Origin: Natrinema versiforme JCM 10478 | Lineage (GTDB): Archaea > Halobacteriota > Halobacteria > Halobacteriales > Natrialbaceae | NCBI RefSeq assembly: GCF_000337195.1 | Contig: NZ_AOID01000001.1 | Location: 10,540 to 42,624 of the forward strand | Direction: 5' to 3' | DNA: 32,085 nt | Part shown: piece by piece, positions 22,716 to 27,929 of the stretch | Numbering within the stretch: the stretch's first letter is position 1 | Layout: each line of letters starts with the position of its first letter | Made by a program: the position numbers and the translations under genes | Notes under the pieces: model-generated | Seen by the model: the letters and a program-made list of their open reading frames with translations, nothing else | Database searches by the model: none | Told to the model about the DNA's origin: nothing

Positions 22716-22868
22716 CGGGCGTCTCTCCGGTCGCCGACTGTAAAACCGTTCGCTCGCGGCCACGAACGGCCCGCACCGGCCTTTCGAGCGGATCGGTGAC
22801 ACGCACCACCCCTTTCGGGAACGGCAAGGTTCTTGGTTCGGGTCTCGGATATCGAAACGAGAACAGAG

Positions 22869-23162
22869 ATGTCGTTCCACGCCGCGGCAATGCCGACGGC
22901 GATCGCGCTCGCGGTCGTCAAGACGCTCGTGCTCATGGTCGGCGGCGTGATCACGTTCTTCGCGTACAAGGCCTACCAGCGCACGCGACAGCCGGCGCTT
23001 GGCTACCTCTCGCTCGGATTCGGTCTCGTCACGCTCGGACTGGTACTGGCCGGCATGCTGTACGAACTCCTCGACGTGCCGCTGATGACCGGCGTCTTGC
23101 TCGAGAGCCTGTTAGTGCTCGCCGGCTTCCTCGTGATCGCGCGCTCGCTGTATGTCACGTGA
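22869..23162 (+). CDS. Small membrane protein, DUF7521-like
   Basis: A 97-residue protein with three hydrophobic helices: about 10-28 ('AIALAVVKTLVLMVGGVIT'), 43-62 ('LGYLSLGFGLVTLGLVLAGML') and 70-93 ('PLMTGVLLESLLVLAGFLVIARSL'). The pattern 'KT..ml.GgvitffAYKAYqRT' matches the haloarchaeal DUF7521 family (name recalled, not searched). These proteins are often encoded beside HTH regulators, but none is adjacent here. The function is unknown. The start at 22869 (MSFHAAAMP) is preferred over the upstream TTG/GTG options. Confidence 0.82.
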   Translation: MSFHAAAMPTAIALAVVKTLVLMVGGVITFFAYKAYQRTRQPALGYLSLGFGLVTLGLVLAGMLYELLDVPLMTGVLLESLLVLAGFLVIARSLYVT

Positions 23163-25691: not shown

Positions 25692-25839
25692 ATCGGCTCT
25701 TGGGGGGCCGAACTAATCAACATTGGCTTCACCCACGACGACTGCAGGGACCGACCGCGGTCCGGGTATCCGTCTGCCGACCGGTTGTTTGGACGCGTTT
25801 GTCCCTACCCATATGGCGCGCTCGGCTAACCTCTTCGAC

Positions 25840-26166
25840 ATGTCCGACTCAGTTAGCCCGCCACTCGAGCGAAACCCGGCCGACGGAACGTATCACGTTT
25901 CCCGGGAGTGGACGGCGTCGCAATCGACGACGGTCGCCATCGTCACCGTCATCGACGCCATCCCCGCTCTCGAGTTCGCCGAAACCGAGACCGTCCACGA
26001 TCGGGTCGACCCGGACGCGCTAGATGCGCTGTTCGAACCGACCGCTGCCGGCCCGCGCCCGGCCGGTAGTTGCATTCGGATCCCCTTCCGGAGCTTCACC
26101 GTCGTCGTCCACAGCGACGGCGAACTCGTCGTTCGGCCGGCATCGCTCGAGACGGCGGAGCAGTGA
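25840..26166 (+). CDS. HalOD1 output-domain protein
   Basis: A 108-residue protein consisting of one HalOD1 (Halobacterial output domain 1) unit. 'TYHVSREWTASQSTTVAIVTVIDAIPALEFAETETVHDRVDPDALDALFE' followed by 'IRIPFRSFTVVVHSDGELVVRP' matches the haloarchaeal pattern 'VDPDALDALF ... G.V.V'. HalOD1 occurs as a C-terminal output module in signalling proteins and alone; its biochemical activity is unknown. The start could also be the in-frame ATG at 25813. It converges with the next gene, 5 bases apart. Confidence 0.88.
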   Translation: MSDSVSPPLERNPADGTYHVSREWTASQSTTVAIVTVIDAIPALEFAETETVHDRVDPDALDALFEPTAAGPRPAGSCIRIPFRSFTVVVHSDGELVVRPASLETAEQ

Positions 26167-26171
26167 CACGC

Positions 26172-27656
26172 TCAGTCCGCGGACGCCGACTCTCGGCGCT
26201 CGAGACTGCGTTCGACGCCGGGGACGAGCCGGGTGATGACCGCCGACCCGTCGCGGTCCCTGACGACGAGTCCGTTGTCCGCGAGCGTCGAGAGGTGGTG
26301 GGTCACCGTACTCGGGTCCCGGTCGAGTTCGTCCGCCAGCGCCGTCGTCTGTGCCGGCCCGTGCTCGGCCAGCGTCTCGAGTATCCGACGGGTCGCCGGC
26401 TTCTCGAGCGCCGTCCGGAGTGCGATATCGATCTCGTCGGTCGTATCCGCGCGACGGTAACAGCGCTTCCCACGGACTTTCTCCGAGTCGATCAGACCCT
26501 CCTCCTCGAGAATCCGGAGGTGGTGTCGGACCGTCGACAGCGACGCGTCGGTCGCCGCCGCGACCGCGGAGAGGTTGATCCCCGGCTCGTCCGCGATCGT
26601 TCGATAGAGCTCCCGCCGGGAGTCGTGCTCAAGCGGATCGGAGTCGTCGAACCGGCTGTAGCGGAACAGCCCGCCGAGGTATCGCCACCCGCCGTCGGAG
26701 CCCGCCCGCTCGAGGGTGGTCGCCGCCATGCGAACCGTCCCCTGCAGCGACGATGACTGCCCGACGACGACCGTCGCGGTGCCGACCGACGACGCGTTGG
26801 CGGCCGCCGCAGTGAGCAGGGTCGCGAGCGCGATGCTGGCACCTTCACCCGGCCCTGACGACTCGTCGGGGTCGGATTCGGTCTCAGCGTCGGTCGCGTC
26901 CCCGCCGTCCGCGGTCACGGCAGTGCCGTTTCCACCCCCATCACCCGCCGTCGGCCCCCCGCGGCCGTTGTCGGGATCGGATTCGGTCCCGTCACTCGAG
27001 TTGGCCGAATCCGCGGGCTCGGTGGCGTTTGCCGAGTCATCGGCGCCGTCCGGCGTGTCCGAGTGATCGGAATCGTCAGGGTCGTCCGGATCATCCGGAT
27101 CGTCGGAATCATCAGCGTCGTTCGGATCGTCAGGGTCGTCAGGGTCATCCGGATCGTCGGGATCATCAGCGTCGTCAGGATCGTCCGTATCGGCTGGATC
27201 GTTCGAGTCACTGGTATCGCTCGTATCAGCCGGGTCGTCCGAGTCACTGGTATCGCTCGTATCCGCGGGGTCGGTAGAGTCGTCCGTGTCGTTCGGGTCG
27301 TCGGGATCATCCTGACTGCCGGAACTGGTCGTATTGTCCGTCTCGGTTGTCCCATCAGAACCGTCGGAACCGGTCGTCTCGTTCGTCTCGGTCGTCCCAT
27401 CCGTATCATCGAGATCATCCGGGTCGTCGGGGTCGTCGGGATCGTCAGGGTCGTCAGGGTCATCGGGATCGTCCGGGTCATCGGAGTCGTTCTGTACTGC
27501 GAGTACCGACTGGGTTGCACTCGAGTCGGCTGTCACTGTCTCATGTTCGGGACCGGTGGTGACCGTTGCCGCGGCTCCGGCGGTGAACGCCGTCGCGACG
27601 AGTGCGACGACGAGACTCGCACACAGCATCGTGCGCACGGTCGTCTTCCGGGTCAT
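26172..27656 (-). CDS. Membrane-tethered regulator: signal peptide, long Asp-rich repeat, two winged-helix domains
   Basis: A 494-residue protein of unusual architecture. Residues 1-32 are a signal peptide or anchor ('MLCASLVVALVATAFTAGAAATV'). Residues 57-230 are a long Asp-rich low-complexity region of 'DDP' and 'DPADTSDTSDS' repeats. A hydrophobic stretch at 272-300 ('ASIALATLLTAAAANASSVGTATVVVG') is probably a membrane helix. Residues 345-403 are one winged helix ('LSTVRHHLRILEEEGLIDSEKVRGKRCYRR') and 412-485 a second ('STVTHHLSTLADNGLVVRDRDGSAVITRL'). The likely topology is repeat outside and both DNA-binding domains in the cytoplasm, as in membrane-bound regulators. A TATA element about 27816-27823 lies 160 nt upstream of the ATG, so a long leader is possible. 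Its target is unknown. Confidence 0.85.
   Translation of the reverse strand: MTRKTTVRTMLCASLVVALVATAFTAGAAATVTTGPEHETVTADSSATQSVLAVQNDSDDPDDPDDPDDPDDPDDPDDPDDLDDTDGTTETNETTGSDGSDGTTETDNTTSSGSQDDPDDPNDTDDSTDPADTSDTSDSDDPADTSDTSDSNDPADTDDPDDADDPDDPDDPDDPDDPNDADDSDDPDDPDDPDDSDHSDTPDGADDSANATEPADSANSSDGTESDPDNGRGGPTAGDGGGNGTAVTADGGDATDAETESDPDESSGPGEGASIALATLLTAAAANASSVGTATVVVGQSSSLQGTVRMAATTLERAGSDGGWRYLGGLFRYSRFDDSDPLEHDSRRELYRTIADEPGINLSAVAAATDASLSTVRHHLRILEEEGLIDSEKVRGKRCYRRADTTDEIDIALRTALEKPATRRILETLAEHGPAQTTALADELDRDPSTVTHHLSTLADNGLVVRDRDGSAVITRLVPGVERSLERRESASAD
27057..27311 (-). repeat. Degenerate DDP / DTSDTSDS repeat array (second array)
   Basis: This is the coding sequence for residues 116-200 of the same protein. 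It mixes 9-nt DDP/DDA/NDA units with two copies of a 12-residue unit (DPADTSDTSDSD or ...SN). Length variation between strains would be expected. Confidence 0.8.
27405..27488 (-). repeat. Tandem 9-nt repeat encoding DDP units (first array)
   Basis: About nine copies of a 9-nt unit (GAY GAY CCN on the coding strand) encode residues 57-84 of the membrane-tethered regulator. Copies differ mainly in the third codon positions, which suggests replication slippage and repeat expansion with drift. A second, degenerate array lies at 27057-27311. Confidence 0.85.
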
Positions 27657-27815
27657 GAGCTCGAGGTATCGATCGTGACGGACTCGCGATCGTCAGTGCA
27701 GCAGGCCGGGTTGTCTGGGATCGACCGACCGAGCGCTGTGGCTCGGCGCGTACCAGTCGGAGGGCCGGATTGACGCGGTTTCTCGCAGCTATTCACGATA
27801 ATTGAAGGCTTCATC

Positions 27816-27824
27816 CATTAAATT
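27816..27824 (-). promoter_or_regulatory. Likely TATA element of the membrane-tethered regulator
   Basis: On the minus strand, ATTTAAT at 27823-27817 is the best TATA in the intergenic region. It is about 160 nt upstream of the start codon at 27656, implying a 5' leader of roughly 130-140 nt, which contains a small hairpin (CCGAGC 27729-27734 with GCTCGG 27741-27746). Confidence 0.4.
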
Positions 27825-27929
27825 ACTGCAGTCGCTCCCACGAGTCGGCGGGCCGGCAGCGTCGGACTCGCAGCGATCGATCGACGGCGTGTAGTCACCG
27901 TTTTATCGCTCGAGGCGCTACCGGGAGCC

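Follow-up and report, generated by a model that had tools for sequence, protein, structure and literature searches.

The window analyzed here is a stretch of 32,085 nucleotides from Natrinema versiforme JCM 10478 (contig NZ_AOID01000001.1, positions 10,540 to 42,624), and positions 26172-27656 are filled by one open reading frame on the minus strand. Its 494 codons run from an ATG at 27656 to a stop at 26172, and the encoded 494-residue protein comprises, from N- to C-terminus, a signal peptide, an Asp-rich low-complexity stalk, a weakly hydrophobic segment (residues 273-298) and two winged helices. A reading of the letters alone (the sequence-only reading) had already proposed this frame without naming its strand, together with the signal peptide and two helix-turn-helix (HTH) domains, and all three proposals hold.

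The signal peptide (27567-27656, minus strand; residues 1-30, MTRKTTVRTMLCASLVVALVATAFTAGAAA) has a basic n-region, a hydrophobic core and an AxA-type end. Its best 19-residue Kyte-Doolittle average (KD19) is 2.07, and its estimated insertion dG is -1.3, where dG is throughout an estimate on the Hessa scale for the ER translocon, checked on controls. The search for homologues covered 29 genomes of the genus and 194 of the class, and 41 homologues were read. At least 40 homologues with the same domain plan occur across the Halobacteria, in several haloarchaeal families. Of the 41 that were read, 40 begin with a signal-peptide-like N-terminus, and the remaining one (L064) is cut short by its own locus. 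When the protein is compared with L006, its closest orthologue at 86% identity, all regions show dN lower than dS, including the signal peptide and the hydrophobic segment. Purifying selection thus acts on the 494-residue frame, from which we conclude that the gene is real and that its translation is correct. A downstream start that would omit the signal peptide is disfavored by the conservation of that peptide and by the purifying selection on it.

Distribution of the gene and its neighbors

A maximum-likelihood tree built from the DNA-binding part separates two clades within the genus, rooted on cytosolic HVO_0163-like proteins as outgroup. Clade A (support 95/86) unites the 494-residue protein with seven orthologues, and clade B (98/92) consists of paralogues. 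In eight of the 29 congeneric genomes the clade-A gene is flanked by an HSP20 gene on one side and a radical SAM gene on the other, while nine genomes that returned no clade-A match have just a short HSP20-radical SAM gap at the site. One of these nine (G026) retains, beside its radical SAM gene, 28 codons from the 3' end of the gene as a remnant (L106, G026:C55, 3616-3699). Presence in eight of 29 genomes, the empty sites and this remnant together mark the gene as accessory and lost at least once. A scan of the genome contigs with patterns drawn from the single protein, half of them within the repeat, returned no match.

We considered whether the gene's neighbors point to its function. Genomes that lack the gene have the same HSP20/radical SAM block, so synteny provides no functional link. 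An orphan HalOD1 output-domain gene (25723-26163, plus strand) adjoins the 3' end of the frame, and a search of seven orthologous loci found no counterpart. A divergent mutS gene neighbors several genes of clade B as well as relatives from other genera. For the homologues L091-L096, which come from several genera, the divergent neighbor is mutS-like, and most of them also have a small Cys/His-rich gene of CHY zinc-finger-like type nearby (gene names as read from sequence).

An Asp-rich stalk of variable chemistry

The stalk (27042-27491, minus strand; residues 56-205) carries 19 DDP triplets in three runs (residues 56-85, 116-127 and 158-196), broken up by Thr/Ser/Asn-rich pieces, and this stretch of about 150 residues is 46% Asp. 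An Asp-rich stretch had thus been recognized correctly beforehand, whereas the DDP-type repeat of some 170 residues then described resolves into these three runs. An acidic Ser/Asn/Gly spacer follows (26844-27041, minus strand; residues 206-271), with the N-x-S/T sequons NAT210, NSS219 and NGT243.

Between the 494-residue protein and L006, the repeat is 78% identical in amino acids, with an 18-residue length change, and the hydrophobic segment is 97% identical. The stalk (27042-27491) is the longer of the two by 18 codons, a difference that suggests replication slippage within the repeat. At the orthologous locus, clade-A members carry DDP repeats (L006, L007 and L009), SPDDSDPSDTSD (L008), a short SPD-rich stretch (L010) or KPGKPD (L011 and L012), and relatives at other loci carry TTDGLENATDT repeats or repeats of the TTD and NET types. 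Stalk net charge is -92 here, compared with -5 and +7 in the KPGKPD orthologues L011 and L012, and ranges from -122 to +7 across clade A; across the family, stalks are between 115 and 426 residues long. The replacement of DDP by near-neutral KPGKPD in L011 and L012 amounts to a rapid switch of repeat chemistry inside one genus. Because its chemistry varies so freely, the stalk has the look of a spacer and not of a metal or salt sensor; judged from these alignments, a ligand site built of Asp cannot be its conserved function, whereas a flexible spacer can.

Sequons are distributed unevenly along these proteins. Almost every family stalk is rich in N-x-S/T sequons; together the stalks contain 293 where shuffles of the same stalks predict 104.5, a 2.8-fold excess, while the C-terminal DNA-binding parts contain nine where 16.6 are expected. 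N-x-S/T also outnumbers its mirror pattern S/T-x-N, by 40 to 19 in clade A and by 253 to 81 in the other members. These counts are inflated by repeat duplication and so are not independent, though the bias is still seen in most members. Such a distribution would be expected if an extracytoplasmic oligosaccharyltransferase had access to the stalk but not to the winged helices. As such, the bias constitutes the best sequence evidence that the stalk would lie outside and the winged helices would not, and the stalk is probably N-glycosylated.

A marginally hydrophobic segment

A single candidate transmembrane (TM) helix follows the spacer (26754-26843, minus strand; residues 272-301, GASIALATLLTAAAANASSVGTATVVVGQS). 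It belongs to an uncharged run of 37 residues (272-308) that is most hydrophobic at residues 273-298, with a best KD19 of 1.45 and an estimated insertion dG of +1.86 kcal/mol. In homologues the same place is occupied by an uncharged run of 16-90 residues, with a dG of about +0.6 to +2.9 in nearly all of them and of -0.4 in L064. Control values were -3.5 for a TM of a P-type ATPase, -2.1 for a TM of a DUF7521 protein and +4 to +7 for winged-helix parts. Among 137 neighboring proteins stripped of their first 40 residues, a segment below 0 occurs in 13%, and 71% lack any segment below +3, and cytosolic proteins of the region reach values similar to that of the segment (1.8-2.6 in an FAD enzyme, about 1.8-2.3 in MutS). 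An AlphaFold model built on 41 sequences renders the segment as coil (pLDDT below 50), and the full-length model places a low-confidence helix at 270-288. A small DUF7521 membrane protein is also encoded in the window (22833-23159, plus strand), and the genome holds seven DUF7521 matches.

Across homologues, the flank before the uncharged run is acidic and the linker after it is mostly net positive. At the N-terminus, the positively charged n-region and the acidic region downstream favor an N-in/C-out signal sequence. A signal peptide combined with winged helices of cytosolic type requires a membrane crossing, and that crossing would have to fall at residues 272-301. We regard this segment as a probable, if weak, membrane segment. 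The later hydrophobic helix of the sequence-only reading survives as an uncharged run of marginal hydrophobicity, with no confident helix in the AlphaFold models; its assignment of residues 272-300 to the membrane falls in a gray zone by KD19 and dG, although charge asymmetry and sequon bias agree with a crossing there. Buried Asn residues can drive the pairing of membrane helices. Asn287 and Ser289 are invariant in the eight clade-A orthologues and form an NAS or NSS sequon inside the segment, one that would fit an outside position. The conserved weakness of the segment may be functional, serving dimerization or proteolytic release, or may be a sign that no TM helix exists.

Tandem winged helices and candidate operators

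A juxtamembrane linker (26631-26753, minus strand; residues 302-342) connects the segment to the DNA-binding part. It carries a conserved LF(R/Q)YSR(F/Y)DDSDPL motif, which in the 494-residue protein reads LFRYSRFDDSDPLEHD, and is net basic upstream of it. Winged helix 1 (26433-26630, minus strand; residues 343-408, the fold spanning about 345-408) matches HTH_24 and HVO_0163_N and holds STVRHHL at residues 374-380. Winged helix 2 (26232-26432, minus strand; residues 409-475) is HTH_20/ArsR-like, lacks Cys and holds STVTHHL at 449-455. Pfam identifies the two domains at 1e-16 (HTH_24) and 1e-19 (HTH_20), and AlphaFold models both with a pLDDT mostly above 90. The HVO_0163 N-terminal HTH family (PF24266) is matched at 41.5-44.5 bits against a gathering cut-off of 31, and by all 41 homologues at 1e-5; the ArsR model NF033788 is matched at 80.5 bits against a cut-off of 55.

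In a Foldseek comparison, part of the tandem comes close to CzrA and SmtB (TM-score 0.83 to CzrA by target length), and ArsR-family chains match winged helix 2 in a profile search. Metal sensing of the ArsR type is rejected, since the metal-site residues are missing from the sequence: winged helix 2 contains neither Cys nor an alpha3 Cys pair, and the alpha5 DxH...HxxE motif is absent. Both winged helices keep a low dN and intact recognition helices.

Upstream of the gene, the 273-bp divergent promoter region shared with the radical SAM gene (27657-27929) contains an A/T-rich near-palindrome, CATTAAATTACTG (27816-27828), whose equivalent in an orthologue alignment is the perfect palindrome CATTAATTTAATG in L011 and L012. 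We consider CATTAAATTACTG a candidate promoter or operator element. The promoters of clade-B and related genes (L013-L020, L022, L043, L044 and L047) carry a different palindrome, CGTGACnGTCACG, which 12 homologues share with zero to two mismatches. Its position relative to the start codon is -61 or -62, immediately upstream of a putative BRE/TATA. About 2% of mononucleotide shuffles match it this well anywhere in 300 bp, a figure to be read with the promoters being related and not independent. CGTGACnGTCACG is accordingly a candidate operator of the winged helices or a candidate promoter element. It is not clearly present at the promoter of the 494-residue gene, so that a shared operator is not established.

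A predicted membrane-tethered regulator

We infer, with a probability of about 0.6, that the 494-residue protein is a type I membrane-tethered one-component transcription regulator with its stalk outside as a spacer and its winged helices in the cytoplasm. Sec would export the N-terminus and place the flexible low-complexity stalk, probably N-glycosylated, outside the cell, until the marginally hydrophobic segment stops transfer. The two HVO_0163/ArsR-MarR-type winged helices would then remain cytoplasmic and bind DNA beside the membrane, probably as dimers, at targets that possibly include the gene's own promoter. The stalk would act as a spacer or handle at the cell surface and not as an Asp-specific ligand site; input from the envelope might come from its mechanical or crowding state, from glycosylation or from a partner protein, or take the form of release by a membrane protease. 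The outside-to-DNA architecture put forward by the sequence-only reading is favored by the signal peptide, the sequons and the charge asymmetry, but the marginal segment leaves it unproven.

Residues that destabilize helices are typical of rhomboid substrates, and the segment is rich in Ala, Gly, Ser and Asn. A rhomboid or site-2 protease (S2P) might cleave it, so that an envelope signal frees the winged helices to act away from the membrane. The conservation of marginal hydrophobicity itself, hardly ever strong in the family, speaks for such regulated intramembrane proteolysis, as does the presence of two rhomboids and four S2P homologues in Haloferax (PMC9263693), but no protease gene was recognized among the conserved neighbors and the literature searched yielded no archaeal transcription factor controlled in this way; we consider this reading unlikely. 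A related and rather unlikely proposal makes the marginal segment a switch beneath a mucin-like glycosylated stalk whose chemistry evolves freely, with the state of the envelope deciding between tethering and release of the winged helices by an intramembrane protease. If true, it would amount to a surface-to-DNA pathway that employs neither a histidine kinase nor a globular sensor. It is quite unlikely, in turn, that the chain does not cross the membrane at all, the segment being a flexible Gly/Ala linker and the mature protein either secreted whole, winged helices included, or inefficiently exported and cytosolic, with the signal sequence as its sole anchor. Marginal hydrophobicity, low AlphaFold confidence and the invariant Asn287 sequon within the segment would fit that arrangement; the opposite sequon biases of stalk and C-terminal part, the N-in/C-out charges around the signal sequence and the winged helices, with their low dN and intact recognition helices, argue against it.

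The sequence-only reading had suggested a sensor, with divalent cations, salinity or the state of the S-layer detected by the Asp repeat and relayed to DNA. The Asp content of this strain and a likely outside location are compatible with that idea, but KPGKPD, SPDDSDPSDTSD or a short SPD-type stretch stands in place of DDP in orthologues at this locus, relatives use TTD and NET types, and length and charge vary freely. The comparison of repeat lengths, which that reading had itself suggested, also weighs against Asp-repeat sensing. We therefore judge an Asp-based sensor highly improbable.

Comparison with known systems

ToxR and CadC of bacteria are single-pass one-component regulators with one part outside and a winged helix inside, as predicted for the 494-residue protein; they differ in having an N-terminal winged helix of another family and a globular periplasmic sensor at the C-terminus. 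ArnR and ArnR1 of Sulfolobus resemble it in working as one-component regulators with a DNA-binding domain tethered to an archaeal membrane, but have an N-terminal HTH, two C-terminal TMs, and HAMP-like and sensor domains, with no such stalk (PMC6396743). Cytosolic HVO_0163-type regulators (PF24266), for example L002 of the same genome, contain tandem winged helices homologous to residues 343-475, with about 41% identity over residues 338-474, whereas the paralogues of this type that were read have no signal peptide, stalk or hydrophobic segment. HVO_0163 itself, from Haloferax, is described as an ArsR-type protein that is up under hypochlorite (PMC10294847).

A literature search whose coverage lacked most subscription journals returned no paper on the family of the 494-residue protein and none on DUF7345 or DUF7343, and COG2512 and COG3398 yielded false matches only. 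The stalked HVO_0163-type family is thus apparently undescribed. It spans multiple genera, has no recognizable sensor domain and allows one to ask directly whether a low-complexity glycosylated stalk and a marginal membrane segment are enough for signaling.

The claim that no described system has this layout was nevertheless too strong, given the at least 40 homologues and four proteins of the same genome (L072, L073, L075 and L076) in which PF24036 and PF24034 searches identify a DUF7345-TM-DUF7343 arrangement. The signal peptide is clear in the first three and visible in L076. In line with the layout predicted for the 494-residue protein, these proteins have an N-terminal signal peptide, an extracytoplasmic part, a single TM and a cytoplasmic winged helix. 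They differ in a globular DUF7345 ectodomain, a strong TM (dG of -1.5 to -3.1, versus +1.86) and one DUF7343 winged helix, where the 494-residue protein has a disordered stalk, a marginal segment and two HVO_0163-like winged helices. The PF24036 ectodomain is not among the 25 families listed for the 494-residue protein, and a genome search with it matches the four others and not this protein; the PF24034 winged helix likewise misses this locus in a search of its own genome and matches four of the 41 homologues at 1e-5. Judged by these predicted domains, the plan of ectodomain, membrane helix and winged helix is already in use in the same genome.
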